DNA from: Pyrenophora tritici-repentis
Taxonomy: Eukaryota > Ascomycota > Dothideomycetes > Pleosporales > Pleosporaceae
Assembly (NCBI RefSeq): GCF_003171515.1
Contig: NC_089390.1
Coordinates: 5,456,001 to 5,520,000, forward strand
Length of the DNA: 64,000 nt
Direction: 5' to 3'
A model generated the notes under the pieces. The model was given only the letters and a program-made list of their open reading frames with translations. It was not told where the DNA came from and made no database searches. Below are positions 6,739 to 52,658 of this stretch, piece after piece; position 1 is the stretch's first letter, and every line of letters begins with the position of its first letter. A program made the position numbers and the translations under genes.

Positions 6739-8066
6739 CACCTTTCCCTCAGCAACCTACAAACCGAGTACCTGACAGACCCCTTGGCCTACCACATGAC
6801 CCGTACAAGACGCTACCGCCGCGATGGTCTCGCAACGATCGGCTCGAAGCCAATACGATCACGCAGTTCTCTAAGCTATGGGACAATAGCAACAAGTATA
6901 CAGGGAATGCGTACGATCTCCTAGACGATAAGATTAAGATCTTCTTCAGCATCTGCTGGCAGGTAGATATCCAGGAGGAGCAGTTTCACGCAGTGTTTCC
7001 CCGTATCCTTACCGGGCGTGCAGAGACGTTCTACATACAGGTTGTAGAGAGAGATGATAGCTTTGCTGATGCGTACATGGCAATCAAAAACCACTTCGAC
7101 CATGACGTCCATCACCAGCACTACTACACAGACTGGACGACTACAACCTTCGCTCGCACCCGCGCAGAGAACCCTGATAAGGGACTACACGAGGTTCTGC
7201 AGATCCTGCTTGACAAGCTGCAGCTATGCCAGCGTGCCCTTGGCAAGAACTTTGAGGGTGAGGATGCCCTCCGCACTACGGTCATCAATGCCTGCCGAGG
7301 AGTACCAGAACTTGAGATGGCACTGTTCAAGCCAGCCACAATCTGTGAAGGACTCTTCTCAGATCTACGATCCGCAGTGGAAACACACCTAGCACGGCAA
7401 CACACCGCCCAGTTGGTCACAGAAGATCAATACTACCTAGACCGCCGATACAACGGCAATGGAAGGATCCGAGGTGGATCTCGAGGTGGAGGAGGATTCA
7501 GAGGCGGATCCAGAGGAGCATACCGAGGAGGCGAGCAGCGCGACGACAACGGACGAGGATTCAAGCCACGTTGGAGGAAGAAATGCTTTGTTTGCCGGAA
7601 GGAAGGATGCTGGTCTACCAACCACACAGATAAAGAGCGCAAAGATGCCCGTGCGCAGTTCTTCTCTACGCTATACTTTACAGGTGCACAGCCCCTGAGG
7701 ACTTCTCCGTACATCTTGCAGAATACGAAGGGATCGAGCACACCAGCCAGTACAATCAGAGAGGCTGGAGAGAGGAGGAAGACTGCGAGGATGACGAGGA
7801 TGACGACGTCGCGGAAGCACATTCTGAACACCAGTTCTTCAAGGAGCAATGCCTTGCAGACCAGGCGTTCTTGCATCATATCTCGGGCGACGACATATAC
7901 AGCCGAGACGCGCCGTCAGCACCAGCATCGCAGTTCCTGCTTGAGGACCGCTACACACGATCTGTGTACCAAGGAATCCTACCAGATACAGGCGCTGCAA
8001 ACGTATCCACGGTCGGCAAGGAGCAATACCTCGCACTTACGAGAGAAGATCCGACGGTTAAGTTAG
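6687..8066 (+). CDS. Copia element 1, central Gag frame with zinc knuckle
   Basis: Supplies the main capsid-like Gag region (NKYTGNAYDLLDDK, then ILTGRAETFY) and, near 7585-7640, an RG-rich stretch followed by a zinc knuckle of the form C-x2-C-x4-C-x4-H (CFVCRKEGCWSTNH). The related intact element has the same knuckle. The useful part ends near 7690. Beyond it the meaningful reading moves to the third frame, which carries an acidic linker (EEEDCEDDEDDDVAEAH) that this frame misses, so the tail from about 7690 to 8066 is out-of-frame translation. The start at 6687 is nominal. Confidence 0.65.
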   Translation: MVPADTDTTPATAYREVTPFPQQPTNRVPDRPLGLPHDPYKTLPPRWSRNDRLEANTITQFSKLWDNSNKYTGNAYDLLDDKIKIFFSICWQVDIQEEQFHAVFPRILTGRAETFYIQVVERDDSFADAYMAIKNHFDHDVHHQHYYTDWTTTTFARTRAENPDKGLHEVLQILLDKLQLCQRALGKNFEGEDALRTTVINACRGVPELEMALFKPATICEGLFSDLRSAVETHLARQHTAQLVTEDQYYLDRRYNGNGRIRGGSRGGGGFRGGSRGAYRGGEQRDDNGRGFKPRWRKKCFVCRKEGCWSTNHTDKERKDARAQFFSTLYFTGAQPLRTSPYILQNTKGSSTPASTIREAGERRKTARMTRMTTSRKHILNTSSSRSNALQTRRSCIISRATTYTAETRRQHQHRSSCLRTATHDLCTKESYQIQALQTYPRSARSNTSHLREKIRRLS

Positions 8067-11000
8067 ACACATCTACAGCAGGGAAAGCGTCTATTAAATT
8101 CGGAAAAGGCGAGGCTACAGCGTCGATTGGCACCGTGCAGGTCTCTACGGAGATCGGAAAAATCAACTTCGAAGTGCTCGAGGCGCCTACGCCGTTCTTG
8201 CTATGCCTTGCAGACATGGACCGCTTAAAGGTATACTTCAACAATACGACAGACGAGCTGGTTCAGGATGACGTACACATCCCGGTGATTCGCAAATGGG
8301 GACATCCTTGGTTCCATCTAAACAAGAGAGAGAGAGCAACTATGTTCCTAACGGAGACAGAATTGCGACGGCTCCATCGACGGTTTGGACACCCAGCTGT
8401 TACGCGACTAGTCAAACTCTTAAAGGATGCTGGCCATAACGACTTCGAAGAAAGAACCCTAGAAGAAGTCACTAAGTTCTGCCACCACTGCCAGCTCCAC
8501 AGCTCCGCGCCGCGCCGATTCAAATTCACTCTTAAGGATGATCACCACTTCAACTATGAGATCCTGGTGGACGTAATGTACCTAAGCAACAAACCTGTAC
8601 TGCATGTGGTCGATTCCTCAACAGCGTTTCAAGGCGCGAGGTTCCTCAGCGCTATCTCAGCTAAAGAAACATGGCAAGCACTGCGGATACTATGGATCGA
8701 CACCTACCAGGGACCACCCGACATCATCACGCATGATGCAGGTACTAACTTCGCGAGCGCAGAGTTCCGCGCAGAAGCAAAGATCATGGGAGTCACATGC
8801 AAGCAAGTACCTACGGAGGCGCACTGGTCTATCGGCAAAACTGAGAGGTACCATGCCCCTCTACGCCGGGCATGGGACATACTCCATGCAGAACTCACTG
8901 ACACTATGTCCGACGACGCGATTCTCCAGATGGCTGTGAAGGCTGTTAACGATACTGCTGGCCCTGATGGACTAGTCCCGACGTTACTAGTCTTTGGAGC
9001 GTACCCACGAATGACTGCAGAGTCACCGCCATCACCATCAATGGTCAAACGCAGCGAGGCTATTCAAAAGGCGACGAAAGCCCTGCGCAAGCTCACTGCA
9101 GAGCGCCAAGTTGCAGACGCCTTGAACACCCGCAATGGACCAGCCACTGCAGACATGCTCGCGCTCCCACTCCAGAGCGAAGTCTTAGTATGGAGAGAGA
9201 GTGATGGCTGGAATGGCCCGTACAAGATCGCCAGTACAGATGGCCACAACATCACTGTCGACATGGTTAATGGTCCAGCGACATTCAGATCAACTGTCGT
9301 TAAGCCATACTACAGACCAGACCACCTGTGGAGCGACCCTGATGCGCCACACGCGCCGAATGAGCCGAATGAGCCGCACGAGCCGATAGCAGTACCTCCG
9401 GCAGCGCAACCACGTAGAAGAGGCCGCCCTCCAGGGTCAAAGAACAAGCGGAAGGCGCACGCGTACATCACCAAGAAGGAGCAGGACGATCTTGAGCTAG
9501 CTATCAAGCTACGGAACGATGGCGTGATCACAACCTCAGGCGCCCCCTTTGAAGCGTCTGATGACCAAGAGATCAGCGACCTAGTAGGTCGTGGAGTCTT
9601 CAAGTTTGAGCAATACGACGAGAGGCTACACAGCAAGATCCGGATCTTTAAGTCACGCCTAGTACGTGAGGTCAAGGGAAAGACAACTAAGCCTTATGAG
9701 AAATCCCGTCTGGTTATCCAAGGCTACCAAGACTATGGCAAGGAGGCTATCTTAACGCAGTCGCCAACCATCCAGCGATGTAGCCAGCGCCTGATTATGT
9801 CGCTGGCGCCTGGGCTAGTACAAAGCGGCATGAGCGTTGAGCTACGTGATATTACGCAGGCATACCCACAGGCTCAGACAACACTGAAGAGGACGATACT
9901 CGCACACCTCCCTACCGAGCTGGTACATCGATATCCAGAAGGCACGATACTCCACGTGATCAAGCCACTATATGGGATCGCGGAGGCAGGAGTCCACTGG
10001 TGGACAACATATCACGGACACCACTGCAAGGAACTAGATATGTCAACATCTACGTACGACCCATGCCTGTTGATCACGAACAGCGACGACGCAGACGTCT
10101 TCGGCATCGTCGGTATGCAGACAGACGACACCCTCATGCTCGGAACGACCGCGTTCTTATCACGCGAAGAGAAAAAGATCCAGAAGGCGCAGTTTAGATC
10201 AAAACCAAAGGCTATGCTGACACCAGAGGTGCAGTTAGACTTTAATGGATGTACACTTACGATGGACGCCAGCAGAGTCTTAATCCTCAGGCAGAAAGGA
10301 CAAGGAGGAAGGATCAGGCTTGTTGATATTAGGGCACCCGACCGCGCGCAACAGTACACCGAGCAACGCGCCCGCGGAGCGTACATCGCATCAACATGCC
10401 AACCAGAGGCATCATTTGATCTGTCCGTAGCTGCTCAAGCGCAGCAACCATCAGACGAGGACATTAAGGCACTCAACAAGCGCCTGAAATGGCAGATGGA
10501 GAATCTCACTCGTGGCCTACGCTACGTCACTGTCAACCTTACGGAGGCTAAGTTGATAGTCTTTGTAGACGGCTCCTTTGCCAACAACAAGGACCTCAGC
10601 TCACAGCTAGGCTTTGTCCTCATGCTCGTCAACGAGTCCATTGGCGCCAACACCTTCACAATACAAGGCAACGTGATCCACTACAGCTCTACAAAGTGCA
10701 AGCGCATCACACGGAGCGTACTGGCCTCAGAGATCTACGGCATGGTCAACGGCTTTGACATAGGCATCGCGGTTGCAACCACGCTAAGGATAGTTACAGA
10801 ACGACTTGGACTACCTGCAATTCCCTTGGTTATCTGTACAGACTCGTACTCCTTGTACGAGTGCCTAGTAAAGCTTGGGACAACGAAGGAGAAGCGCCTC
10901 ATGATCGATATTATGGCGCTGCGCCAATCATATGAGCGTCGCGAGATCACGGAGATCCGCTGGATCAATGGCGAAGACAATCCTGCAGACGCCTTCACGA

Positions 11001-11101
11001 AGGCATCGCCAAACCGCGCTCTTGAACGCTTTATTGACGGCAATAAGCTGACAGTCCGAGTAGATGGATGGGTGCAGAGGCCAACAAGCTTTGATGTTTA
11101 A
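7634..11101 (+). CDS. Copia element 1 Pol: protease, integrase, RT, RNase H
   Basis: Open from 7634 to a stop at 11101 with no ATG required, as expected for the Pol part of a polyprotein. In order: acidic linker; aspartic protease (LPDTGAANVS); integrase zinc finger (LHRRFGHP...CHHCQ) and D,D,E core (DAGTNFAS, then EAHWSIGKTERYH); a basic linker (RRRGRPPGSKNKRK); reverse transcriptase (SRLVIQGYQD, YGIAEAGVHWW) whose catalytic loop reads QTDDT instead of the usual copia YVDDM; and RNase H (VFVDGSFANNKD). All expected domains are present. The protein can only be made here if upstream frames are joined by frameshifting, or if the element is helped in trans. Confidence 0.85.
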   Translation, partial: RAQRCPCAVLLYAILYRCTAPEDFSVHLAEYEGIEHTSQYNQRGWREEEDCEDDEDDDVAEAHSEHQFFKEQCLADQAFLHHISGDDIYSRDAPSAPASQFLLEDRYTRSVYQGILPDTGAANVSTVGKEQYLALTREDPTVKLDTSTAGKASIKFGKGEATASIGTVQVSTEIGKINFEVLEAPTPFLLCLADMDRLKVYFNNTTDELVQDDVHIPVIRKWGHPWFHLNKRERATMFLTETELRRLHRRFGHPAVTRLVKLLKDAGHNDFEERTLEEVTKFCHHCQLHSSAPRRFKFTLKDDHHFNYEILVDVMYLSNKPVLHVVDSSTAFQGARFLSAISAKETWQALRILWIDTYQGPPDIITHDAGTNFASAEFRAEAKIMGVTCKQVPTEAHWSIGKTERYHAPLRRAWDILHAELTDTMSDDAILQMAVKAVNDTAGPDGLVPTLLVFGAYPRMTAESPPSPSMVKRSEAIQKATKALRKLTAERQVADALNTRNGPATADMLALPLQSEVLVWRESDGWNGPYKIASTDGHNITVDMVNGPATFRSTVVKPYYRPDHLWSDPDAPHAPNEPNEPHEPIAVPPAAQPRRRGRPPGSKNKRKAHAYITKKEQDDLELAIKLRNDGVITTSGAPFEASDDQEISDLVGRGVFKFEQYDERLHSKIRIFKSRLVREVKGKTTKPYEKSRLVIQGYQDYGKEAILTQSPTIQRCSQRLIMSLAPGLVQSGMSVELRDITQAYPQAQTTLKRTILAHLPTELVHRYPEGTILHVIKPLYGIAEAGVHWWTTYHGHHCKELDMSTSTYDPCLLITNSDDADVFGIVGMQTDDTLMLGTTAFLSREEKKIQKAQFRSKPKAMLTPEVQLDFNGCTLTMDASRVLILRQKGQGGRIRLVDIRAPDRAQQYTEQRARGAYIASTCQPEASFDLSVAAQAQQPSDEDIKALNKRLKWQMENLTRGLRYVTVNLTEAKLIVFVDGSFANNKDLSSQLGFVLMLVNESIGANTFTIQGNVIHYSSTKCKRITRSVLASEIYGMVNGFDIGIAVATTLRIVTERLGLPAIPLVICTDSYSLYECLVKLGTTKEKRLMIDIMALRQSYERREITEIRWINGEDNPADAFTKASPNRALERFIDGNKLTVRVDGWVQRPTSFDV

Positions 11102-25845: not shown

Positions 25846-26051
25846 TGTTGATACGGCTAAGGTATCGGAATCACCTTCGTTGCAACGAGTTGAAATGATT
25901 GTGATTGTTCTTGTTGTTCTATGGAGGTGGAGGGAGGTCGGCAGTAAGGCAGCAGCTAGAGCTCGGACCACACGGCTTAGTCAGCCGTGTAATCCAAGCT
26001 CGTGCATGCAGCAACCAGCTGCCTTATCTACCGCAGGTTCGATTCCCAACA
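25846..26051 (-). repeat. 3' LTR of copia element 2
   Basis: 206 bp, apparently identical to 31346-31551. On the plus strand it ends with GGTTCGATTCCCAACA, which contains a perfect tRNA B-box-type sequence. Confidence 0.93.
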
Positions 26052-26232: not shown

Positions 26233-29200
26233 CTACTTGGTGCCTTCAAGGTTGCTGAGCTCGGTGCTCTCGGTCGTGGGCTTGGTGTTGCGATCACGGT
26301 TGACCCACCCTTGCACTCGGAGGTTGAGCTCGTTAGAGTTGATGAGGTTCTCTATCGCGGCGTTGCAACCTGCCTTTGTCATAGAGTCTGCTGGGTTGTC
26401 GCGACCGTCGATCCATCTGATATCCATGAGTTCGCTGCGCTCGTAGGCTTCGCGCATTGCCATGATGTCAATCATAAGGCGTTTCTCCTTGGTGGTGCCG
26501 AGCTTGACAAGGCAATCGTATAGCGATCGCGAGTCGGTGCATACCACGATGGGGACCTTAGGTAAGTTGAGTCGTTCCATGACCATATCAATGGTGCCGC
26601 CGATCGCGACTGCGATATCTACGCCGTGCGCCATCGCGTAGATCTCGGAGGCGAGGACGCTCCTGGTGATCCGCTTGCATTTGACTGAGGACCAGTGGAC
26701 GATGTTGCCACGTATCCCGAAGTTTGTGTCGCTTGAGGTGACTTCATTGCCGAGTACGATGACGAATCCCATCTGGGAGCTCATATCCTTGTTGTTGGCA
26801 AAGGACGCGTCGACTAGGGTAAACAGCTTGAGGTTGCGTATGTCCAGAGGTACGTAGGTCAACCCATGGCAGAGGTTCTTCTTTTGCCATTCGATGCGTT
26901 TGTTTAACTTGGATATTTCTTCTTTTGTAGGCTCACTCGCTTGCGCAGCAGCGGCGAGGTCGAAGCTTGCTTCGGGTTGACAGATTGTCGCGATGTAAGC
27001 GCCACGTGCGCGTTGTTGAATGTACGTCTTCTTGTCAGTTGCGATCTCCAGTTTCTCACCTTGTTTCTTTTGGCGTAGTGTGATCACGCCGTCTGTTGTG
27101 AGACTAACGACGCACCCGTTAAAGTCGATAGGGTTGTTAGTAGTAAGAAACTGCTTCTCTTTGGCGCTGAAGCGCAGCTCCTTGCTCTCCTTATTGGCAA
27201 ACACGTCATCGGACAGACCGAGCGTGTCATCAGTTTGCATGCCGACAATACCAAAGCCTAACGCCGTTGGCTTGGTGATTAAGAGGCACGGGTCATAGGT
27301 TGATGTTTCCATCCCGAGTGTCGTGGTATGGTGTTTGAAGTAGGTTGACCACCAGTACGCTCCTGCCTCGGCGATGCCGTACAGCGGCTTCACGACCACC
27401 ATGATGGTGCCTTTGGGGTAGGCATCGCGGAGTTGCGTGGGAAGATCCGCGATGATCGTGCGCTGGAGATGGTCATCGGCTTGCGTGTACGCCTGCGTGA
27501 TATCTCGAAGCCATAGCGTCATGCCCATTTGAAGCAGTGAGGGTGCAAGCGCGATAATAATGCGCTGACTGGCGCGCTGGATCGTCGGGCTTTGTGTGAG
27601 CACAATCCGTTTTCCATCATCGGCATAACCCTGAACAACGAGGCGCGATTTCTCGTACGGCTTAGTGGTAGTTTTGCCTTTGACCTCGTTGACAATCCGT
27701 GACTTAAAGACGCGGATGCCACCATGGCGCTGAGGGTCATACTCCTCGAAGCGGAACACTCCGCGAGTGATCAGCGCGTCAATCTCTGCCTTGGTGGATA
27801 GTTCGAATGGTTCGCCTAGGGTTGTGATCTTGCCAGTGGCACGCAGCTTCTTGGACAGCACTAAGTCGTCCTCCTCGCGTTGCGTGAGGTTGACGTCGTT
27901 GGTCTCGATGGGAGCTGGTTTTGGCTTGTTTTTGGAGCCTTTGGGGCGACCGCGCTTTCGTGGAGGTGGAACTTCTGTCTCTGGGATAAACTCGTCATCG
28001 TCCGCATCCCCGCAATTGTCGTTGTCGTCGTCGTCGCGCGGGATAACGGTGGAGTTGTTGCGGTGGTATGGCTGCACCGATGTGACTCGAAATGTCGCCT
28101 GCCTGCCGTCGACGTCGACAATCGCGGCGGTTAGGTCGTCGTTCATGGCGATGAGGGTATGGGGACCAGTCCAACCGCGGTTCTCGCGCCAAACCTTTAC
28201 GCTGCTCTGGATCGGGAGCTGAAGCGTTTCAATGACGTTCGGTCCGTTGCGTGTCGCAAGTGCGTCGTTCACCTGGCGTTTTGCTTTGATCTTGCGGACC
28301 TCCGCCATCGCGTTCTTTATCGCTTTCGCGCGCGCGCTGATGGATGGTGATGGCGGCGATGTCTTGGATAGGCGGGGGTAGGTGCCAAAGACGAGGAGAG
28401 TAGGCACAAGGCCATCTGGACCAGCAGTGTCGTTGACGGCTTTCACAGCCATCTGGAGGAGGTGTTCAGATGACGTGTCGCTGTCTATGTCGGCGGAGAT
28501 GACTTCGAAGGCACGGCGGATGGCCGCATGGTACCGCTCCACCTTGCCGATGGAGTTATGCGCCTCGACAGGCACCTCGTCAACCTCGATGGCCATTGTC
28601 TTTGCATTGTTGACAAACTCCTCGCTCGCAAAGTTCTTGCCAGCGTCGGTGGCTATGACATCAGGCGGACCAACGTACATGTCGATCCACATGGCGCGGA
28701 GTGTGTCCCATGTTGTGCTTGCTTTCATGTCGGTGAGAAAGCGCGCTGCTTGGAAGGCAGTTGCTTCGTCAATAGCATGAAGTACTGGCCTCTGATTAAT
28801 GTACATCACGTCGACGATAAGTCGATAGTTGAAGTTGATATCGTCGCGGAGGGTAAACCGAAATCGTCCTGGCGCCTTGCCAGTAATCTGACATTGGTGA
28901 CAGAACTTGTTGATCTTTTCGATGGTCGCCGCATCGACTTCGTCATAACCTGCTCTCGCGAGGACCTTGTAGAGTCGTCCCGCAGCTGGATGACCAAAGC
29001 GCCGATGGAGTTGCGCAAGCTCTACCTCGGTGAGGTAGTGCGTCGCGGTCTCTTGGTCGTCGAGTAGGAGCCATGGGTGTCCCCATTTGCGCACAATGGG
29101 GTACTCCCGTGACTCGTGTACAAGCACGTTGTCAACATTGTTGAGGTAGATCCCGTGGCGGTCCATGTCTGCAAGGCACAGCAAGAAAGGCGTGTTGGTC

Positions 29201-31068
29201 GGCATCACCGCAAAAAGTATAACGCCGAGCGGGGTTTTGACCTTCACCTCGCCAAGTGAGAGACACTCTGGGTTATCTCCAAATCGAATTCGGTGGCGAC
29301 CTGCCGTGGACTCATTGATCGTGGCCGATGGCTGGAGGCGTTGCAGTGCCATGACCTGGGTCTTTCCTGCAGTGGAGACTCCGGCCGCGCCGGTGTCGGG
29401 CATGATGCCTTGGAAACAGTGAGCACCATATCGGTGATCGAAGGTGAACATGTGGGGTGCCTCCTTTGCAGTCTCCGACGCGTATGGGTCGATCCCAGTG
29501 ATCGTGTGGGTCGCCGCGGCGTCGTTGAGGTTGATGGTGAGCGCTTGCCCGTCGATGGTTCCGCAAGCAGCGGTGTTGAATTGTTCATGTTGGAAGTACG
29601 CATCGAGGTCATCAACGCGGTTGCCGTCGTCGTCCTCTGCCTCGTCATGAAGCTCGATGCCTTCGAATCCGGCGAGGAACACGTCGTAGTCGTCATCGAG
29701 ATCGTGGTTTTGGACATAAGTCTTGAAGCGTTGGTGCGACTCATTGCGCTCCTCGTGTGAATGTCGCGTTGACCAGCATCCTTGTTTGCCGCACACATAG
29801 CACTTTTTATCGTGCGAGCGGCGGGGAGGGTATCGCGGTCGTGACAGCGTCGGTCCGCGGTTGAAGCGACCGGTGCCATAGCCTCGGGGTCTGTCGCGAG
29901 GTTCGTCGTTTCGGTTGTATCGTCGGTTTGTGTAGAAGATGTCATCGTCTGTCTGTTCATTGTCATAGTTGAACTGCGTTCGAGCATGCGGGTGACAGCG
30001 TTGCCAGTTACCGACGGCGTTGCGGAGCTCTGAAGCGACTGCTTCAAAGGTCGACGCAGGTCGGATCAGGACTGCGCTGCAGGCTTCGACACCCTGGCAT
30101 GCTGACACAAGTTGTCCGGTGAGGCTTGACTCGCTGAGTCCATTCTGCTGAGCCATCGCTTGGTACAGCTTGTGGAGCTTGTCGATGAGCAAGTCAAGGC
30201 ATTGCGCAATTGTCTTGTCAGGATTACTTGCGATGACGTCCTTTAGCATAATGGTGCGCCATTCGTTCAAGAACAACTGGTAGTTCTCGGTAGTGTGGAA
30301 GTAGGCGCCCAGTTTCGCGATGATGTCTTCGTATCCAAGGTCAAGTGGAGCGATAGATTGGTAGTAGTAAGTTGACGCTTTGCCAGTAAGCATAGTAGAG
30401 ATGGCTAGCTTGTAGCGGTCAGTTTGGCCAGGTTGAATGCCGACTTTGGCGCAAAGCTCTCGAAAGATGACCAGTTTGTGACTGAGCACGTCATACTTGT
30501 CACCACTGAACTTATCGTTGTTATTGTACAGCTTCGCGAGGTTTGTGAGTGCTGTCACGTTGAGTTGAGCTGGCGACGGTGAGTACTGTGCTTGTGGGTA
30601 TCCTGTTGGTGGCTGCGGAGGGTTAGGGTAACTGTAGTTGCTGTTTGTGAGCTGTCGACACTTGAAACCGTCGACGAGTCGCATAAGCTCAAGCTCGTCG
30701 TCAGGCCATATCGGGCACGACGAGAGATGGAGGAGGTTGTACAGTTGCGTTATTACTGTGTCACGACTGTTGATCTGGATGTAAATCCCTCGGTGTCGGA
30801 GCAATTCCTTGACTGCTTTCCGGAGCCGCACGTCGACCGCACTTATGATATCTTGAGTCCAATCCTCGAAGGACTTTTGGAACTCCTGGAGGATGAAGAG
30901 GTCGAACTGTCCATCGTCTTCAACTTGGACGACCCAATCGAGGACGACAGTGTTCAGTTTGTCGGTGTTTATGACTGTGTCGGTCGGGTCGAGTTCCGCG
31001 TTGACATACTCACTCTTGTGCATCTCGGAGTACCACGATCGGTACTTGACGCTCTTGTATGGTGCCAT
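26233..31068 (-). CDS. Copia element 2 Gag-Pol polyprotein
   Basis: ATG at 31066-31068, stop at 26233, about 1611 residues; the frame is also open upstream but without a better ATG. Order: Gag, zinc knuckle (CYVCGKQGCWSTRH), acidic linker, protease (MPDTGAAGVS), integrase zinc finger (LHRRFGHP...CHQC) and D,D,E core (DAGKNFAS, EAHNSIGKVERYH), basic linker (PPRKRGRPKGSKNK), reverse transcriptase (SRLVVQGYAD; YGIAEAGAYWW; catalytic GMQTDDTLGL) and RNase H (LVDASFANNKDMSSQMG). Gag and Pol are fused in one frame, so the Gag:Pol ratio must be set by something other than frameshifting. It is clearly related to element 1 but not the same family, because the LTRs differ. Confidence 0.92.
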   Translation of the reverse strand: MAPYKSVKYRSWYSEMHKSEYVNAELDPTDTVINTDKLNTVVLDWVVQVEDDGQFDLFILQEFQKSFEDWTQDIISAVDVRLRKAVKELLRHRGIYIQINSRDTVITQLYNLLHLSSCPIWPDDELELMRLVDGFKCRQLTNSNYSYPNPPQPPTGYPQAQYSPSPAQLNVTALTNLAKLYNNNDKFSGDKYDVLSHKLVIFRELCAKVGIQPGQTDRYKLAISTMLTGKASTYYYQSIAPLDLGYEDIIAKLGAYFHTTENYQLFLNEWRTIMLKDVIASNPDKTIAQCLDLLIDKLHKLYQAMAQQNGLSESSLTGQLVSACQGVEACSAVLIRPASTFEAVASELRNAVGNWQRCHPHARTQFNYDNEQTDDDIFYTNRRYNRNDEPRDRPRGYGTGRFNRGPTLSRPRYPPRRSHDKKCYVCGKQGCWSTRHSHEERNESHQRFKTYVQNHDLDDDYDVFLAGFEGIELHDEAEDDDGNRVDDLDAYFQHEQFNTAACGTIDGQALTINLNDAAATHTITGIDPYASETAKEAPHMFTFDHRYGAHCFQGIMPDTGAAGVSTAGKTQVMALQRLQPSATINESTAGRHRIRFGDNPECLSLGEVKVKTPLGVILFAVMPTNTPFLLCLADMDRHGIYLNNVDNVLVHESREYPIVRKWGHPWLLLDDQETATHYLTEVELAQLHRRFGHPAAGRLYKVLARAGYDEVDAATIEKINKFCHQCQITGKAPGRFRFTLRDDINFNYRLIVDVMYINQRPVLHAIDEATAFQAARFLTDMKASTTWDTLRAMWIDMYVGPPDVIATDAGKNFASEEFVNNAKTMAIEVDEVPVEAHNSIGKVERYHAAIRRAFEVISADIDSDTSSEHLLQMAVKAVNDTAGPDGLVPTLLVFGTYPRLSKTSPPSPSISARAKAIKNAMAEVRKIKAKRQVNDALATRNGPNVIETLQLPIQSSVKVWRENRGWTGPHTLIAMNDDLTAAIVDVDGRQATFRVTSVQPYHRNNSTVIPRDDDDNDNCGDADDDEFIPETEVPPPRKRGRPKGSKNKPKPAPIETNDVNLTQREEDDLVLSKKLRATGKITTLGEPFELSTKAEIDALITRGVFRFEEYDPQRHGGIRVFKSRIVNEVKGKTTTKPYEKSRLVVQGYADDGKRIVLTQSPTIQRASQRIIIALAPSLLQMGMTLWLRDITQAYTQADDHLQRTIIADLPTQLRDAYPKGTIMVVVKPLYGIAEAGAYWWSTYFKHHTTTLGMETSTYDPCLLITKPTALGFGIVGMQTDDTLGLSDDVFANKESKELRFSAKEKQFLTTNNPIDFNGCVVSLTTDGVITLRQKKQGEKLEIATDKKTYIQQRARGAYIATICQPEASFDLAAAAQASEPTKEEISKLNKRIEWQKKNLCHGLTYVPLDIRNLKLFTLVDASFANNKDMSSQMGFVIVLGNEVTSSDTNFGIRGNIVHWSSVKCKRITRSVLASEIYAMAHGVDIAVAIGGTIDMVMERLNLPKVPIVVCTDSRSLYDCLVKLGTTKEKRLMIDIMAMREAYERSELMDIRWIDGRDNPADSMTKAGCNAAIENLINSNELNLRVQGWVNRDRNTKPTTESTELSNLEGTK

Positions 31069-31345
31069 GGTGCTGAAGTCAGTCGATTGTTTGCTGTTAG
31101 TTGCAGGCGTTGTCAGTTGTTTTTGTGCGTGGTTGACGCAGATCTTTTCGTTCAAGATCTCCTTCAGGACTGTCGGCGAAAGCGCTACCTTGATAGGTAG
31201 TCTCTGCGGGCGGTGCTGTACTTCGCACTCCTTGCTACTGTGAGGTAGGAGGAGTCGCTTCTTGGCCAAGACTACACAGCAAAAGAGCTGATGGGTCTCC
31301 TTGTCAGATATCTAGCCGATCTGTGGTGTAGCAACCACTGATCAG

Positions 31346-34800: not shown

Positions 34801-34992
34801 GATATTAGCTGAGAAACTCAACACCAAGGTTTCTATATAACTTTCCTAATCGGGACTGAGCCCATCAAGCCGAGCGAGCTGACAGCCCTGTTTCAGCCAA
34901 TCCGAGCGAGCCGAGCGAGCTGCTGGCCTCCGCTCAATTGGCTGAGCAAGCCAATTGGCTGAGCTCGCTCAGCTTGCTCATTGACATCTGTG
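31853..34992 (+). mobile_element. hAT DNA transposon 1, point-mutated
   Basis: 3140 bp flanked by the 8-bp direct repeat AGTGATTG (31845-31852 and 34993-35000). The ends form a 21-bp imperfect terminal inverted repeat sharing TGTCAAYGAGCRAGC. Both ends hold clusters of short GC-rich repeats (GAGCGAGC and its complement). The transposase frame is destroyed by eight stops and one frameshift. It is inserted in the LINE, whose flanking frame is clean. Confidence 0.92.
32282..34812 (+). pseudogene. hAT transposase, inactivated by transition-type stops
   Basis: Same protein plan as the intact copy at 37392-39956: basic N terminus from ATG 32282, BED-like zinc finger (WICHYCYKHK), DDE region (VSFDGWTTKGGKRGYLG and YFVLDNAHNNN) and C-terminal dimerisation domain (CECERLFSELGDLLEPRRR). 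Stops near 32600, 32626, 32942, 33004, 33067, 33826, 33862 and 34480 are all TAG or TAA. Compared with the intact copy, several replace Trp (TGG to TAG) or Gln (CAG or CAA to TAG or TAA), the pattern of RIP. A one-base deletion near 33540 shifts the frame. Confidence 0.88.
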
Positions 34993-37000
34993 AGTGATTG
35001 TAGGAGGCTAGTGGCGTAGCTTTGGTTCTTCCAGTATATTTGTGATCCGTAGTCTGCAACGCTTGTGACGCATGCTAGGTATAGTTGTCGTACTGCTTTT
35101 GGGGAGAGTCCTCTTTCGATGTTGGCTAGTCTCCCTAGTCTATAGAATGCTTTCCTTGCTTGGCTTACGCGTGTAGCAATATGTTCCTTGAAGGACAGTC
35201 TATTGTCTATGTGGATACCTAGCCATTTGATTGTGTCTTTCGGTTCTACAATGGTGTTGTCTGGAAGCTGTAGGCTTCTCTCTTTTCTCTCTTTCTTGGC
35301 GGTAAAGTGGATGAGCTCTGTCTTAGCTATATCGAACATAATCGCTAAGTTTTTCCCTCGGTGAGATAGTAGGCGGACTTGCTGTTCTAGTATTTTGACA
35401 TTTTTCTTTAGCGATGTTGAGGATGTCGATAGAGATAGGTCGTCAATATAGGATAGGTTGAAGCTTTGTAGTCCTGGGAAGAGGTCTCTGGTGTAGATAA
35501 GAAAGAAGATTGGAGACACTGGGCTGCCTTGAGGTATCCCAGCTATTATCTCGGAGAATTCTTGTGTCTTATTGTCGAAGGAGAGTCTTAGCGATCTGTT
35601 TGAGAAGAAGGATTTTGTCCAAGCGATAAGACTAATTGGAAGGCCTAGCTTCTTAAGCGTTCGCAGGAATTGATTGTGTGAGACGTGGTCAAATGCTCCC
35701 TTTACGTCTAGGAAGATAGTTGATGTTATTTGGCCTTTCTGTTTCTGGTGCTGAATTTGGTCGATGAGTAGCATAGCTGCATCTATTGCAGATTTCTTGA
35801 GTCTACCCCCAATTTGGGTTGGGTGTAGTAGCTCTGTGATTTCTGCTAGATTGCTCAGCCTACTTGCGGTGATCCTCTCGTTAATCTTTCCTAAACAGCT
35901 TAATAGAGTGATAACTCTGTAGGCTTTTGGGATTGAATAGTCTGGTTTTGATGCCTTTTTAAGAACAGCTCCTGTAGCTTGTTTCCAGCATTTTGGGTGG
36001 TATCCATAGTTGAATAGGAGTGAGAAAGCTCTAAACATTGTTTGCGGTTGAGCTTTGTACGCGGCTGTGATTATGTCTTGTGTTATTGCATCTGGTCCTG
36101 GGGTGCTACTTTTGACTTGACTTGAGCATGCTCGTTCTAGTTCAGTCGTGGATAGTGCTGGCCAATCCCATCTCTTTTCCTGGTAGTTGGTGAATGTGGG
36201 CGCTTCGGTTATGGGCGGTGGTGGGAATAGCGTGTTGCGGAACGCTTGGCATTTCTTGTCGAATGATGTTTCTCCTTGTATAGGTGGAATTCTTTCGACT
36301 TTGTTATCCTTTGTATATGCCATGGCTTTGTAGATTGACTGCGGGTCTTCCTTCTCTAGGAATTCATTCCAGTGTTTCCTTTTAGCGTCTTTGATTGCCT
36401 TGTTGTAGGTGTTTCGTGCACGTAGGAAGTCTCTTTTCTCTAGGTAGGCGTCGTGTATCGCAGTAGTTTCGAGCTTTTCTTTAAAAATCCTTCTATAGTG
36501 GGAAGTGTCTTGTCGTAGCTTTGTCAGCTCTTTGTTCCACCAAGCTTTTGGTTTTGGACCAAGTCTAGTGATAGGGATAGCTTTGTTTGCTGCAGTTTGG
36601 ATTGCTTGAGTTATTGCTTTACCAATCTCTTCTAGCTGTTGCTCTAGCTCTGTATTGTTGCCGAGGAGGAGGTCCATTAAGTCTGCCTTTCTTGGATCAC
36701 TGATCTGGTCCATATCTTGCAAGGTTTGACTGTTTTGGATTGCCGTTTCTAGTTCTTTGTTGAAGGTGTCCCAGTTAGCCTTTGCAGTATTAAATCTGGG
36801 TTGGTTTGTCGGGTTTTCTACAAGGTCTGCGTTTGTTTGGATGGAGAATAGGAGGCCGTAGTGATCTGATCCAGTTTCAGGTATAGTCTGCCAGTCCGTA
36901 GCTTTGCTAGCCAAGTCTGGAGTGACAAGTGAGAGGTCTAGGACTGTTTCTCTAGATAGGTGTGGTCTGAAGAATGTGCCTACTCCTGGTGTGTTTAGGA
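34993..37000 (-). pseudogene. LINE ORF2, endonuclease end and reverse transcriptase
   Basis: About 670 open codons. The start completes the endonuclease (PGVGTFFRPHLSRETVLDL, then ETGSDHYGLLF with the conserved SDH). RT follows with the fingers/palm motifs (TIFLDVKGAFDHVSHNQF; AGIPQGSPVSPIFFLIY; catalytic YIDDLSL near 35441) and thumb (IKWLGIHIDNRLSFKEHI). No stops, so this LINE copy was intact in this part when it inserted. Both ends are interrupted by hAT elements. Confidence 0.92.
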
Positions 37001-40000
37001 CAGACTTTCCAAAAAGCAAGTTGACTTGGATTACTTGCTTGACTTGCTTGGTTTAAACCAAGCAAGCAAGTCAAGTAAGAGCTGGGCAGCTAAGCAAGCA
37101 AGTCAAGTCAAGATACTTTGCTTGCTTGGCTTACTTGGTTTACTTGGTTGTTTTAGCGTTACTGTGATGAGGGTGCTAAAACTGCTGTACGGTAGATGTC
37201 GCGATGGTTTTGAAGTGTTGCAGTTGCCTCGGTTGAGTCCCAAACAGGCTAAGCGGCTATCAAATAACGTTAGCCTTAGTCTAGCGCATTGCTCCAATCT
37301 CGACGTACGCCTGTCTAGAAGCCTATCGCAATGCAGTATCCCCTATAGCAACGCGTTTTCCAGTGATTTATACTGCCCTGATACCCCCAATATGGCCAAA
37401 CGTCGCCTACCACAAACTTCTGCTCGGAGCAAACGTACGAAAGTAGCCGCTGCCACCAACAACGTCGCCTCAACTCCTGAGGCTTCACCTGAGCCTGCAT
37501 CTAAGCCTGCATCTAAGCCTAGACCTCAGCGTCGATCACCTCGCAAAACCCTAGCTGCCGCAAGCCAGGCTAACGCCTCGCCGCCAATACCTACCTTCGA
37601 GTTGCAGTTCTTAGAGTCGCAGGCGGAGGCTGAGATTGTCGCGCCCACCGAGGGCAGCCGAGCTGGCACGGTGGCTACAACTGAGGCTGGAGAGGGTGGT
37701 CAGGATGAGACAAACAGCGCACTAGTTGAGAACTTTGACGGCATTGACTGGGCACGTTTACCTGATTTTATCAAGCCATTGGCGCGTTCTAAGCGCCCAA
37801 AAAGTTGGATCTTTCAGTATGGCTACCGCGTTGTTGAGCGCCATGCTACATCTCGAATCTGGTTTGTGTGCAAGTACTGCCATGTACACAAAACTATCGA
37901 CGCTGGCCGTGGTGGTTTGTTTAACATTACTCAGGCTACAACCTCAGCAGCCACCCATCTCAGCCAACCAAAGCCTGGCCACAACCTTACGAAAGATGGC
38001 CCAAAGTTAGCGCAGAGAGCTCGAGGCCAGCTGTCGTTGCGGCAAGCTTTTGACGCTGGTTTAGACGTACAACAAAACACTGCTAACGCGTTTGGAAACT
38101 TCGACGTAGAGGGCTTTCGAACAGCCACTGTCATGTGGCTTGTTAACCGAAACCACCCGCTCAGCGAACTTACGACGCCTGATTTTAGAGAGATGATGAG
38201 ATTTGCCAACCCAGAGGCAGAGGCAGCGTTGTGGGTAAGTAATACCAGCGTTTCTACCTTTGTGATGAGGTTGTTCCGGTCTATACGACCGCAAGTTATC
38301 GACACCCTGTCAGGCTCAGTAAGCAAAATACACGTAAGCTTTGATGGCTGGACAACAAAGGGTGGTAAACGTGGCTTCTTTGGAGTAGTCGCTCACTTTG
38401 CCGACGCAGCTGGAATAATACGAGACTTACCAATCGATCTGCCTGAGCTCGCTGGCGCCCACACCGGTGAGGCTATTGCCAAAGCTATCTCGACGACGCT
38501 CTCAGCATACGGAATAACAAGCGACCGATTAGGCTATTTTGTACTCGACAACGCTACCAACAACGACACTGCGATCGCCGCGCTCGCGCGCGAGTACGAA
38601 TTTGAGTCCGCTCACCGGCGCCTCCGCTGCAGTTGTCACACGCTTAACCTCATCGGCCAGGCTATTATATTTGGCACCAACAAAGACGCCTACGGCAACA
38701 CTCAAGAGCAGTACAATACCGAGGAGCAGTATATGCGAGAGTGGCGGAAAGATGGCCCTATTGGAGTGCTAGTTGACGTCATCAACTATATCAAAACGCC
38801 GCAACAGTACGAGCTTTTTCGTGGCTACCAGCGCCTTGCCAACAACAACCTGCCTGCTGAAGGGCGTCTCAAAGTACTCGAGCCAGTCAAGCCTGTCGTC
38901 ACTCGCTGGAACTCATACTATGCTGCTTTTGAGCGCGCTACCAAGCTTCAAGCCGCGTATAACTTGTACGCTGAGCATCATATCAATAGGGTTATCCTTG
39001 AAGATGCGCACGCTGCGCAGCGGAATAATAAGCGGCCCGACGCCCCAAACTGGATGAGATCAACTGGGCTCCGAGCTGCTGACTGGGCGGTGATTGCAGA
39101 GTACCAGGACTGCTTAGAGCCGCTCAAGTACGCCACAAAACGCCTCGAGGGACGCTCTAAGGATGGCAAATACGGCGCAATCTATGAGGTTATACCCGTT
39201 TTTGAGTACGTACTCAGCAAGCTTGAGGCCCGGGCGCGCCCGTTCGAGCACGTCGACTTCAACGCTCATGCCGAGGCTCCAGAGGATCACCTCAACGTCA
39301 ACCTCCGCGCCGCGTGGAGCAAAGCCAACGACTACTACAACAAGCTCGACGACTCGCCCGCTTACTACGCCGCTGTTTGCCTACACCCGTACTACAAGAA
39401 CTACTGCGATGTGGCGTGGGCAGACAAAGCTGATTGGCTTACTAGTGCCAACGCGTCGTTCCAACAGCTTTGGGCGGCATACAAACCTCAACGAGCACGC
39501 CAGCGGTATACAACTGCGCCGAGTAGCAACAACATAGACGAGGCAATTATTGCTATACTTAGCCGCAACAATGACCGAGAGGCTCCACTTGACGAGTTTG
39601 AGCGCTGGAAAACACAAGAGCCGCAGTGGACGCAGGAGCAGTACAACGCAGATGGAAATCCTGTCCAATACTGGATACAACTACTGCCGAAATACCCGCA
39701 TTTAGCGCAGTTTGCAATCGATATCATGACTATCCCAGCATCAAGCAGCGACTGTGAGCGCCTCTTCAGTGAGCTTGGCGACCTTCTTGAACCTAAACGA
39801 CGTGCTCTGGGCAGTGAGCTACTCGCAGCTCTTCAATTAGTAAGGTCATGGGTGCGAGCTGGTTATAAACCGTACAACTGTAGCGAGGCTAAGCTTTCAG
39901 ATGAGCAGCTTGTAGGAGATTACAACATACTAGAGTGGAACACTGAGTTTTGGTAATTTGTATGTAGCTTAATCTCTTTGTAGTAGTCAAGTAATCCAAG

Positions 40001-47423: not shown

Positions 47424-47727
47424 AAACTATTATCGGCGCATTTTGATGCGTACCGATGCACTGCAGAGGAAGTGGCGGCTCTCACGTGGACCTGACGATA
47501 ATGCAGGCCGCGAACACGACGGATGGTGTAAGGGGTTTGCGGATACTCCATATCTCGCAAATCGAAGCAGCCAACATGATTCCTAGTAAATATTCGTCTC
47601 TCAATGCTTAGGACTCTTGCGCAGCTTCTGGAAAGTGGTGTCTAGTCTAAGGGGCTAGCCCCCCTCGGCGGGTCGGCACATTCTCACCACCAAAGTCAAA
47701 AAATGGCAAAAAAGAAGTTTTCTGTGC

Positions 47728-47732
47728 AAAAA
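47728..47732 (-). terminator. Pol III terminator after tRNA-Glu
   Basis: A run of five T on the minus strand begins 9 nt beyond the tRNA discriminator base, a normal position and length for RNA polymerase III termination. Confidence 0.7.
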
Positions 47733-47740
47733 GATACATG

Positions 47741-47885
47741 TTCCGGTACCGGGAATCGAACCCGGCTCTCGTCGGAAGCTGGCATGTGAGACATGAAAGC
47801 GACGGATGCTAGCCGATCTGGGAGTTATTAGAATCGTAGTTGGAAGGCGGGGTATTGTGAGGATGAACTTACACACCATACCGGA
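47741..47885 (-). tRNA. tRNA-Glu (UUC) with a canonical intron and an extra 55-nt D-arm insertion
   Basis: Exons read 47885-47873, 47817-47794 and 47775-47741 on the minus strand; together they are exactly 72 nt. Acceptor strands TCCGGTA and TACCGGA pair fully. D stem GTGT/GCAT pairs (G-U, U-A, G-C, U-G) around loop ATCGGCTA; anticodon stem CGTCG/CGACG surrounds CTTTCAC (anticodon UUC); T stem CCGGG/CCCGG surrounds TTCGATT. An 18-nt intron lies after position 37, the standard place. A second, 55-nt insertion lies between positions 13 and 14 (47818-47872). The B box is perfect but the A box is split by the insertion. If the insertion is not removed from the RNA, the gene is dead. Standard tRNA finders would probably call only a 3' half or a pseudogene. 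Confidence 0.75.
47818..47872 (-). other. Spliceosomal-type intron candidate in the tRNA D arm
   Basis: It begins GTAAGT, contains TCTAATAAC 7 nt from its end (branch-point-like) and ends CCCAG; 55 nt, the usual size of protein-gene introns in this window. Removing exactly this piece gives the best D stem of the alternatives tried; other cut points create mismatches. Confidence 0.55.
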
Positions 47886-48858
47886 TTAATTGATGAAAGA
47901 CTGAATAGTTTAGACATTTATATTCTTGACAAAAGAAATTGGAAACGGGCGCTTGAGGTACACTTCCAGTGGACGCTGGACATGACAACACGCTGGCTCG
48001 CATAGTGGAGCTGTTGGTATACCCCGCTACCTGCTCTGCATGCTCCAGAAGGGTTGGCACACTAGTGGTTCAGTGCTGTGGAACAAAGACGCGGAGACGG
48101 GCGATCCGTGGCCGGAATCATAGAGCCTTTTTCACTCGGACAGATACGGCACGGCTTAAATGCCGAGTCTAGCAGTCCTAGTGAATTTGTTCACTGGTTG
48201 GCTGCTTTTGTGGTGTCGAACAATGGATGGCTTGTTGCCGGCGGGCTTAGTCAGGGGGGTCGGCAAACCTTCCCCAAGTGATGGCGTTGTGCCGCGAACG
48301 AACACCATAACTTGGTGGGGATAACGAGCATCAAGACTTCAATGTTGTGCCATATTCAAAAGAGCAAACAGATATGATACAGCATGGCTACATTCAACAT
48401 TGCGTGGATATATATAACTTGCTCCCCAAAATTGCGAAGGCCTCCTGACCCCGCCATGTTCTCGTGTACAACGGTGGGGTATCCATTATACTCATCTGCA
48501 CTCGCCAGCACACCGCAACATCACAACTCCCCCGTGAATGAACGCACGGCCATCTCGCCGCTGATCTCAAATCATGTATATCTTTCCGCGGACCCGGGAT
48601 AACCGCGAGTTTCAATTCATCAGCGTCGTCATCCACGCCAAACCCATTTCCGTCAACAATCAAACAATGAATCCATGTCCCACCCACCACGTCGTCGGGT
48701 GCCTTTGTCCAGTGCGAAAAATGTTCCATTCGCAGCCAGCATGGCAAATCAATGGAAAGACATATCACAGAGACAAGCTTCACAGGTAACAGCAACAACA
48801 CCCAACTGAACACTTTGACTAAACCTCACTGCGAACCTCATACCCTACTTACACGATC
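47886..48858. other. Intergenic stretch
   Basis: No supported gene or repeat; includes the upstream region of the following SAT4-type gene. Confidence 0.45.
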
Positions 48859-50390: not shown

Positions 50391-52232
50391 TCATCCCATG
50401 ACAGCCTGCTTCTGCATCTTTTCACCGCTCTCATCCTCAGGCTGCAGGCCCGCTTTGGCAGGCCCACAAAGCTGTATTCCGTCCTTGCTGAACCGACTAC
50501 CATGTACAGGGCAATCCCAACTCTTCTCTGTCGTGTTCCAGCACACCACACCCTTGAGATGCGGGCATAGAGCCGAGAACTTGTGGATCTGACCTCCTTC
50601 GTCCTTGTATACGGCCAGCGGCTTCTCAGTGCCCTTGTTCAAGACACCGCCCTCACCAGGGACAAGGTCTTCAATGTCGCGGATATCAGATTGGGCGAAG
50701 CGTTTGTACTGCGCGTTGATTTGGAGATCGTGGCTGAGCATGCTGCCGGCGGACTTTGCGATAGAAGCAAGACGCTTAGGGTCGTAGACGCTGATCCATG
50801 GGTTGGCTTGTTCGGTGATGGAATCGGCAATGAGCTTGCCAGCCAGGACACCGTGAGTCAGGCCGTTGCCAGAGTCGCCGGTGACGATGTAAATGTGCTT
50901 GTTACCTTGATTCTTGCCGATAAACGCCATGTAATCTACAGGCTCAAAGATCTGTCCACTCCACTTGTAGTCGATCGTAGTAGCTTGAGGAAAGCGAGCA
51001 CGGGTCCACTCCTCGAGCTCCTTGAGCGGCGCGACTGTGTCATCCTGGCCGACCTTGTGATCGCCACCTCCAACAACCAGATAGTCGTCCTTGTCGTCAC
51101 AGCGTGTGAGTCGAACGTACTTGTACGCTTCGGCCGAATCGTAGAACAGAGCATCCTCGACGGAGCCTTTGGGGACGCGAATGGCGATGCAGTAGGTGCG
51201 GTAGAATTCCTCTTCAGCAATAACCGACAACTTCTGGAGCGGCACGCACGTTGCTTCAACAGCATCAGTGCACTTGATAGTGTGACCGTCAATTGTCTTT
51301 ACGTATACGTCCTTGTGACCCAAGCCCATAATCTCAATACCCTTCTCCTGCACGTCCATGCATCGAGTGTTTGTGTAGCAAGCAAAGTTGGGCTGTTTCT
51401 TAAGATGTTCGAGGAGGCCAACGACGTACTTGGTCGGGTGGAACGTCGCCTGTCCGGAGTAGATGACGGCATCGCGCTGGTCAATCTTGCCTTCCCAGCC
51501 CTTGAGCTTGAATCCCTCCTTGTATTCTGTGGAGATGCCGAACTCCATGGCCTTTTTACCATCCTCAATCAAAGTCTCCATGTCACTGGCATGGTCTTTG
51601 GAGTCTTTGGGGTACTGCGAAAAGTCATAGCCAGGCAATTGGCGGTACTCGCACTCGATGCCCAGCTGCTTGGAAAGCTCCCCAACGCGGTTCAGCGCCC
51701 ATGTGTGTGACTCTGCCGCAGCCTGTGCGCCCTTGTCTCCATGCTTTTTCGCAATCGCAGTGTAGCCGTCGTCGAGATCATTGGCGAGATGACCGCTGGT
51801 GCGTCCAGTTTCACCCGAAAGCACCTCGCGAGCCTCGATCAAGACGACATTGAGACCACGGCTAGCAAGCTCATAGGCAACCGAGACACCAGAAATGCCA
51901 GCGCCGATGATGCAGACGTCAGTCTCGAGGTCCTTCTCAAGCTTTGGAAACTTGGGCATGCTCTTGAAGGGCAACTCATGAACCCAGACGGGATCAGTCT
52001 CGCCGCTGGTATATCGGAAGTGCTCAGGGCTCGACATTTTGGCCGTAGCTACAGATGCGTCACCAGTCATGGTCGCCATGCTTGCTCGTTGTCTAGCAAA
52101 CGCGGGTGTAGGTTGGTGTTTGAGTGCAGTTCTACTATTGGAAGTGCTATAGGAAGCTGCGCGTATCGAGGATAATCGTGAGGTGTTTCGTAAGGCAGAG
52201 GAAGTGAGGAGACGACGAGTAAGCAAGGACAT
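50391..52232 (-). CDS. FAD-dependent oxidoreductase with C-terminal Rieske domain
   Basis: Single exon, 613 residues, ATG at 52230-52232. The first 45 residues are basic and Ser/Arg-rich without acidic residues, as in a mitochondrial presequence. A DAO-type FAD fold begins near residue 105 (CIIGAGISGVSVAYELASRG), with GETGRTSGHLANDL and the closing YIVTGDSGNGLTHG. A Rieske [2Fe-2S] domain lies at about 520-590, with both ligand pairs intact (CPHLKG and CPVHGSRF). DAO plus Rieske proteins are widespread in fungi and bacteria, and their reaction is mostly unassigned (electron-fed demethylation or amine oxidation are suggestions). It is next to the siderophore genes on the same strand as the SidI-like gene, but nothing shows that it belongs to the pathway. 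Long antisense frames here are shadows. Confidence 0.85.
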   Translation of the reverse strand: MSLLTRRLLTSSALRNTSRLSSIRAASYSTSNSRTALKHQPTPAFARQRASMATMTGDASVATAKMSSPEHFRYTSGETDPVWVHELPFKSMPKFPKLEKDLETDVCIIGAGISGVSVAYELASRGLNVVLIEAREVLSGETGRTSGHLANDLDDGYTAIAKKHGDKGAQAAAESHTWALNRVGELSKQLGIECEYRQLPGYDFSQYPKDSKDHASDMETLIEDGKKAMEFGISTEYKEGFKLKGWEGKIDQRDAVIYSGQATFHPTKYVVGLLEHLKKQPNFACYTNTRCMDVQEKGIEIMGLGHKDVYVKTIDGHTIKCTDAVEATCVPLQKLSVIAEEEFYRTYCIAIRVPKGSVEDALFYDSAEAYKYVRLTRCDDKDDYLVVGGGDHKVGQDDTVAPLKELEEWTRARFPQATTIDYKWSGQIFEPVDYMAFIGKNQGNKHIYIVTGDSGNGLTHGVLAGKLIADSITEQANPWISVYDPKRLASIAKSAGSMLSHDLQINAQYKRFAQSDIRDIEDLVPGEGGVLNKGTEKPLAVYKDEGGQIHKFSALCPHLKGVVCWNTTEKSWDCPVHGSRFSKDGIQLCGPAKAGLQPEDESGEKMQKQAVMG

Positions 52233-52658
52233 CTCTCACGATAATGAGCGCGACTGCTATTCACGTGGAGGCACATGTTATGTATGTGCCTAAACAGTCA
52301 ATAATCATGACGAGCTCATGTAATGCCTCGCTCATCATTGGCCATGGCTCACAGTATAGTCAGGTGTCAAGTGTGGAGGCAGCTGGGCACCGCGCCATGG
52401 TGTATCTTTGACGATATACTGACGTCTGTTGCGCGCAGCACACAGCTCCGAGGAGCTCGAAACAAAGCAAAGCCATTTAGCTCGAAATCAGCCCAGATCG
52501 AGAGAATACAATCAGAAGAGACGTATGAATTGAATGCGATGCCATGAAATGCAATAAGAGGAATTGTTACATTGAAGACGTGGAATAGACGATGAAAATG
52601 ATGCAGAATGCCAACACGCTAAAACTCGACCGCGGCACGTCCGCACGTGACCTCAATC

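Follow-up and report, generated by a model that had tools for sequence, protein, structure and literature searches.

tRNA maturation and mRNA splicing are regarded as separate systems. In fungal U6 snRNA genes, a short mRNA-type intron lies within a small Pol III RNA gene, and these introns are thought to have arisen by reverse splicing (PMC10484740). The U6 gene of fission yeast, made by Pol III and carrying an mRNA-type intron, had been offered as a parallel to the present locus in an earlier reading of the sequence (the first-pass annotation), and it is indeed described in that source. U6 differs in being part of the catalytic centre of the spliceosome, which tRNAs are not, whereas the genes considered here are nine in number and represent nine isoacceptors and seven insertion sites. 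Fungal U3 snoRNA introns resemble those reported here in their GT-AG ends, in their GTRWGT and RCTRAY motifs and in the occurrence of paralogues with and without the intron, Dothideomycetes included, but they reside in a snoRNA, have a mean length of 92 nt and are nearly all found in the first stem-loop (PMC5832005). The ectopic spliceosomal introns of lichen-fungal rDNA are likewise of the mRNA type and lie in a structural RNA that Pol II does not make (PMC8527467), but their hosts are Pol I transcripts. Among tRNA genes themselves, introns in the D arm, the anticodon stem and the T arm occur in nucleomorphs, Cyanidioschyzon and archaea; those of Cyanidioschyzon and archaea involve a BHB and the tRNA endonuclease (PMC4090602), whereas the introns described here carry mRNA splice signals and form no such BHB. 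Canonical tRNA introns lie at 37/38, and the gene in our window also has one, from which its longer intron differs in both position and motifs. Among the matches listed from the open-licence literature, no paper described mRNA-type introns within tRNA genes.

The window analysed is a stretch of 64,000 nt (C1:5456001-5520000) of the 40.9-Mb, 41-contig assembly of Pyrenophora tritici-repentis. The protein encoded at 50391-52235 has its best named matches in Pleosporales, namely Coniothyrium glycines (84%) and Plenodomus tracheiphilus (82%), and its top match, at 92%, carries no name. A tRNA-Glu(UUC) gene within the window carries a 55-nt insert at 13/14 as well as an 18-nt intron at 37/38, and we confirmed this arrangement (Table 1). 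The longer insert reads GTAAGT...TTCTAATAACTCCCAG on the minus strand (47872-47818). The GTAAGT, TAATAAC box and CCCAG pointed out in the first-pass annotation are all present, and the motif that this insert has in common with the eight others described below is an overlapping CTAAT. When both inserts are taken out, a 72-nt tRNA with 21 of 21 stem pairs results, as had been proposed, and both pairing and ARAGORN supported the 18-nt intron. It had also been claimed that the acceptor and D stems are perfect only without 47818-47872. We considered the 73 possible 55-nt excisions, with the 18-nt intron already removed: 21 pairs were obtained in 11 of them, seven invariant tRNA features of our own choosing were kept in 14, and the excision at 47872 was the only one to combine all of these pairs and features. 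A single placement of the insert yields this product, and that placement is GT..AG. In addition, the gene possesses the cloverleaf, invariant residues, B box and terminator of a functional tRNA-Glu(UUC). Its A box is split by the 55-nt intron. The unspliced gene was missed by ARAGORN, and Rfam at gathering scores detected no RNA, in the 64-kb window. For the spliced RNA, minimum-energy folding predicts a structure other than the cloverleaf.

Table 1. Features of the window tRNA-Glu(UUC) gene (window positions) and the nine tRNA genes with an insert outside 37/38
Feature	Location	Strand	Insert site	Length	Basis
tRNA-Glu(UUC) gene, whole	47741..47885 = C1:5503741-5503885	minus			sequence reading, cloverleaf pairing
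Exon 1 (positions 1-13: acceptor 5' strand, 8-9, D-stem 5' strand)	47873..47885	minus		13 nt	cloverleaf
Predicted mRNA-type intron (GTAAGT donor, TTCTAAT/TAATAAC branch region, CCCAG acceptor)	47818..47872	minus	13/14	55 nt	
Exon 2 (D loop, D-stem 3' strand, anticodon stem 5' strand, loop to A37; anticodon TTC)	47794..47817	minus			
Ordinary tRNA intron	47776..47793	minus	37/38	18 nt	ARAGORN after removal of the 55 nt: ttc with an 18-nt intron
Exon 3 (anticodon stem 3' strand, variable loop, T arm with B box GGTTCGATTCC, acceptor 3' strand, A73)	47741..47775	minus			
CATCAA element, putative start region, 10 nt before gene	47890..47895	minus			
TATA-like element (CATCAA 28 nt downstream of TATA)	47918..47923	minus			
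T5 run, putative Pol III terminator	47728..47732	minus			
T6 run, second putative terminator	47708-47713	minus			
Glu-UUC	window gene		13/14	55 nt	
Glu-CUC	L064		8/9	53 nt	
Gln-CUG	L074		11/12	63 nt	
Leu-CAA	L100		15/16	51 nt	
Pro-CGG	L070		20/21	52 nt	
Asp-GUC	L078		30/31	54 nt	
Arg-CCG	L099		52/53 (T stem)	57 nt	
Leu-UAA	L136		52/53 (T stem)	55 nt	
Lys-CUU	L145		52/53 (T stem)	62 nt	

Elsewhere in the window, Copia-like elements occur at 26233-31311 (RVT_2 below the Pfam cut-off) and 7634-11101 (RVT_2 above it). GGTTCGATTCCCAACA words, which look like the LTR ends of a Copia-like element, lie 5.5 kb apart near 26036 and 31536 and recur at many other places. A LINE-like reverse transcriptase (RVT_1, 34893-37052) adjoins a hAT transposase ORF (36999-39956).

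The genome contains a second tRNA-Glu(UUC) gene, L068 (C4:2260877), which carries only a 37/38 intron, and the same is true of the tRNA-Glu(CUC) gene L065. Both have C12-G23, the pair given earlier as usual in fungal tRNA-Glu, whereas the window gene has G12-C23. In the alignment of the spliced window gene with these two paralogues, 63 of 63 cells are paired, and both-sided changes are seen in 7 of the 21 pairs, compared with 2.3 +- 1.2 in shuffled data; none of 500 shuffles reached seven, and all six slid controls gave 0. The window gene differs on both sides from L068 and L065 at 5-68 (columns 5-67), 12-23 and 27-43, and the partners of 5-68 and of 12-23 lie on opposite sides of the 55-nt insert. 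The paired change in the D stem, from which selection on the spliced form had previously been suggested, is one of three double changes peculiar to the window gene. We take these compensatory changes as evidence of selection on the spliced form, drawn from three sequences, which are few. Because an ordinary tRNA-Glu(UUC) gene, L068, is present elsewhere, the window copy need not be essential. Ordinary tRNA-Glu(UUC) genes elsewhere, in combination with a silent locus, had been named as grounds for rejecting the intron; the first half of this combination was found, in the form of that one ordinary copy.

B-box pattern searches of the same genome, reading of their matches and a tRNA model search defined 48 nuclear tRNA genes in an incomplete census; an insert outside 37/38 is present in 9 of them and absent from 39. 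Asn, His, Ile, elongator Met, Phe, Tyr and Trp are examples of nuclear isoacceptors that this census did not encounter. The absence of such inserts from the 39 was judged by eye and with ARAGORN, and the insertion sites were numbered by our own count on the cloverleaf. The tRNA model search scored 63 of 1172 candidates. Among the B-box searches, one gave 181 places, 76 of which have GGTTCGATTCCNA (16 of the 76 were read, all LTR-like); a second gave 61, of which 44 were read, with 15 belonging to an 84-nt tRNA-like family and 2 mitochondrial; a third gave 44, of which 19 were read and 25 assigned to rDNA by spacing; and a fourth gave 40, all of which were read, while 104 places of a related search outside these 40 were left out. 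In further searches we read 7 of 104 places, 16 of 18 (all 18 fetched) and, of 90, L065 alone. The B box survives an insertion at 52/53 because GTTCGA, placed directly after the terminal AG of the intron, reconstitutes GGTTCGA; B-box searches therefore favour genes interrupted at this site.

Two tRNA-like loci were counted in neither group. L159 (C3:2073140-2073430, plus strand) has CATCAA upstream, a 7-bp acceptor and T runs; the long stretch between its D arm and T arm holds a CCTCGAATG/CATTCGAGG hairpin, and ARAGORN calls it Met-CAT with a 74-nt intron. L111 (C2:2302755-2303035, plus strand) reads GGCCGAGTGGTAGAGTGG ... GGTTCGATTCC with CATCAA upstream and is rejected by ARAGORN. The census also touched two multi-copy tRNA-like (SINE-like) families that begin with GGGGGATGGCGCAGTGGT, one including L036 and L080 and the other L032 and L101. 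About 22 loci of one GGGGGATGGCGCAGTGGT family were read, with tRNA-Gly as the ARAGORN call, and the 84-nt GGGGGATGGCGCAGTGGT family was found at 19 places in the tRNA model search and at three further loci. Contig C41 (183 kb) looks mitochondrial, and its tRNA matches occur twice in opposite orientation (376/62342, 4639/58052, 83972/179899 and 89031/174839), which suggests large inverted repeats. In the rDNA stretch (9701 nt, 4900 of them N), the 5' end of the 18S alone was recognised.

All nine inserts begin with GT[A/T]NG[T/C], end with YAG, contain a CTAAY whose A lies 10-13 nt from that end and measure 51-63 nt. Each allows 1-4 equivalent placements, one of which is GT..AG, so that GT..AG ends are available in nine of nine cases. 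The donor is GTANG[T/C] in eight inserts (GTAAGT twice, GTAAGC once, GTACGT three times and GTATGT twice) and GTTCGT in one; the branch motif is CTAAC in six and CTAAT in three, and the acceptor CAG in six and TAG in three. These features are close to the published consensus of fungal U3 introns, namely GTRWGT, RCTRAY, YAG and a branch distance of 6-36 (PMC5832005). The branch-to-acceptor distance falls within 6-36 nt in all nine inserts, while the stricter RCTRAY branch occurs in five, the TCTAAT of the window gene not matching it. With placement fixed, the whole grammar of donor, branch and acceptor was found in none of 400,000 random inserts versus nine of nine real ones, a comparison that measures the tightness of the grammar and is no blind test, because the grammar was written after the nine had been viewed. 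In 164 kb of nuclear DNA, counting both strands, the pattern occurred 23 times versus 8.8 +- 2.8 in 20 shuffles, and at least 4 of the 23 matches are tRNA introns; by our own arithmetic, the shuffled rate corresponds to approximately 0.1 matches in 48 genes of 90 nt. TTTT was seen in none of the nine introns versus 3 of 19 elsewhere, a difference that is not significant (p 0.53).

The inserts could in principle be non-canonical introns that the tRNA-splicing endonuclease excises, with ends that resemble those of mRNA introns by coincidence. Non-canonical D- and T-arm introns do exist in nucleomorph tRNA genes, with similar ones in Cyanidioschyzon (PMC4090602), and the 37/38 introns of this genome imply that the endonuclease is presumably present. 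However, no role in endonuclease cleavage is known for donor, branch and acceptor motifs such as those common to the nine inserts, and the inserts are 51-63 nt long versus 3-24 nt in Guillardia (PMC4090602). BHB junctions were considered for all nine and rejected: the central helix of the archaeal-type motif, the only part scored, forms 0-2 of its 4 pairs when the register is strict and no more than 3 in any of nine registers. Of the two introns of the window gene, the 18-nt one lies at 37/38 and the 55-nt one does not. We therefore regard cleavage by the endonuclease as very improbable. Since an archaeal-type BHB is absent, the 37/38 rule does not apply and mRNA splice signals occur in all nine, removal of the inserts is assigned to the spliceosome.

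Sister genes lacking the insert were compared in three families. The Gln genes L075 and L079 have no insert at the point where L074 has one, and the Lys genes L119, L139, L140 and L144 have none at the point interrupted in L145. For Glu-CUC, TCCGATAT runs directly into GGTCTAG in L065 and is separated from it by 53 nt in L064; this comparison was made by eye, the automatic alignment being inadequate at the 5' end. The intron boundaries were fixed by comparison with paralogues, by counting pairs and by scanning excisions; minimum-energy folding and ARAGORN shifts did not fix them. ARAGORN is a weak control in this respect: it accepted shifted excisions, identified L064 and L145 correctly without any splicing and assigned a wrong anticodon to the spliced Gln gene. 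For the other five isoacceptors, Asp(GUC), Leu(UAA), Leu(CAA), Pro(CGG) and Arg(CCG), one genome-wide DNA search gave no close intron-free copy, and the spliced exons matched only their own loci; this search could miss diverged copies, as a genome search with the window gene did not report the diverged L068. No substitute isoacceptor is known for Asp(GUC), nor for Leu(UAA) in the reading of UUA. If the result for these genes holds, their introns must therefore be excised for the cell to survive.

These findings also bear on the possibility that the nine tRNA genes are silent or pseudogenic, with inserts that resemble introns by chance. Inserts in the D and T arms of eukaryotic tRNA genes are usually read as signs of pseudogenes (PMC4090602), and the Glu-UUC, Glu-CUC, Gln and Lys copies could be dead because intron-free paralogues of them exist. 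The genes with no intron-free copy found argue against that usual reading, and so do the intact cloverleaf of the window gene with its compensatory changes, motifs identical in kind across the nine inserts, a T5 run after every gene and upstream elements before most of them. We consider it extremely improbable that the nine are dead copies.

A T5 run starts no more than 10 nt from the end of each of the nine intron-bearing genes. CATCAA is present within 70 nt upstream of 6 of the 9 and of 23 of the 39 ordinary tRNA genes, while it occurs in 3.5% of background 70-mers; a TATA-like element lies upstream of 7 of the 9 and 27 of the 39, with a background of 10.9%. Where both elements occur, their spacing, measured by eye, is approximately 26-29 nt in both groups of genes. 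Arg L099 has neither element, Asp L078 lacks TATA, and Leu-UAA L136 and Lys L145 lack CATCAA. T runs, together with upstream elements as frequent as in ordinary tRNA genes, point to Pol III, by which the nine genes are probably transcribed, and it may be argued from the split A box that the upstream elements are the main promoter of the window gene. That same split A box could instead favour transcription by Pol II, in which spliceosomal introns would sit in longer or capped transcripts from which the tRNA is processed out; spliceosomal introns usually reside in Pol II transcripts. The T5 run directly after each gene and the promoter spacing of ordinary tRNA genes speak against this variant, as does the Pol III-made U6 of fission yeast with its mRNA-type intron (PMC10484740). 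We regard it as unlikely, and it overlaps with the explanation we prefer.

That explanation, which we hold to be very probable whichever polymerase is involved, is that these are spliceosomal introns in working tRNA genes. The best reading of the data is that at least nine nuclear tRNA genes are interrupted by short introns, predicted to be of the U2 type, at non-canonical sites. The first-pass annotation had left a choice between an mRNA-type intron that entered a tRNA gene and a chance mimic of one. The former is favoured, and the latter appears very unlikely, because eight further tRNA genes show the same grammar, insert-free paralogues exist and five genes have no intron-free copy that we could find. 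Under the preferred reading, the window gene would be transcribed from the external TATA/CATCAA promoter and the intact B box, with Pol III as the most likely polymerase; the spliceosome would then cut out the GT-AG intron in the nucleus, so that the cloverleaf can fold; and the tRNA-splicing endonuclease would next excise the separate 37/38 intron and the ends would be processed, in this presumed order.

Should the inserts indeed be spliced out as predicted, the mRNA-splicing machinery would contribute to the tRNA production of this fungus, and the spliceosome would be able to work on pre-tRNAs that have not yet folded. Functional introns of this kind in tRNA genes would link mRNA splicing with tRNA maturation. 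They could also account for tRNAs overlooked by annotation. The non-canonical intron search of tRNAscan-SE 2.0 is described for the archaeal mode (PMC8450103), and the eukaryotic mode would seem to run without it.

The introns themselves may have originated by intron copying or reverse splicing. Beyond the fixed motifs, 2 of the 36 intron pairs are similar (p = 0.0005, the floor of the test): those of L099 (Arg) and L136 (Leu-UAA), which occupy the same T-stem site, and those of L064 (Glu-CUC) and L100 (Leu-CAA), which occupy different sites. For these two pairs, the likeliest origin would be that one tRNA gene passed its intron to another through reverse splicing or gene conversion. The similar pairs would also suit a large introner-like family inserted widely in the genome and into tRNA genes by accident, and introner-like elements have been described in Dothideomycetes (PMC4457414). 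However, the window gene with its intron has no second match in the genome, blastn-short (E 1) of the nine introns against 362 kb of the genome gave no match longer than 15 nt at other places, and five of the nine lack a strongly similar partner. Such a source, which concerns origin and is compatible with the preferred reading of spliceosomal introns in working tRNA genes, is improbable. A bolder proposal, which we advance tentatively and at somewhat less than even confidence, is that the spliceosome has become an essential tRNA processor in this lineage, the sole Asp(GUC) and Leu(UAA) genes found being readable only after spliceosomal excision of an intron from a Pol III transcript, and that the introns spread from tRNA to tRNA by reverse splicing into a homologous tRNA and subsequent gene conversion; the support cited for such spread is the T-stem site common to Arg, Leu and Lys and the related sequences in the two pairs. 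If these are indeed working spliceosomal introns, gains at identical sites, together with intron-free paralogues in one genome, would allow intron gain through reverse splicing to be tested directly.

Two further observations were made in passing. L117, L118, L120 and other loci belong to a highly uniform repeat with GGTTCGATCCCTGTCTGGG, of which more than 20 near-identical copies were read, and a pattern scan of viral contigs returned 25 stretches.
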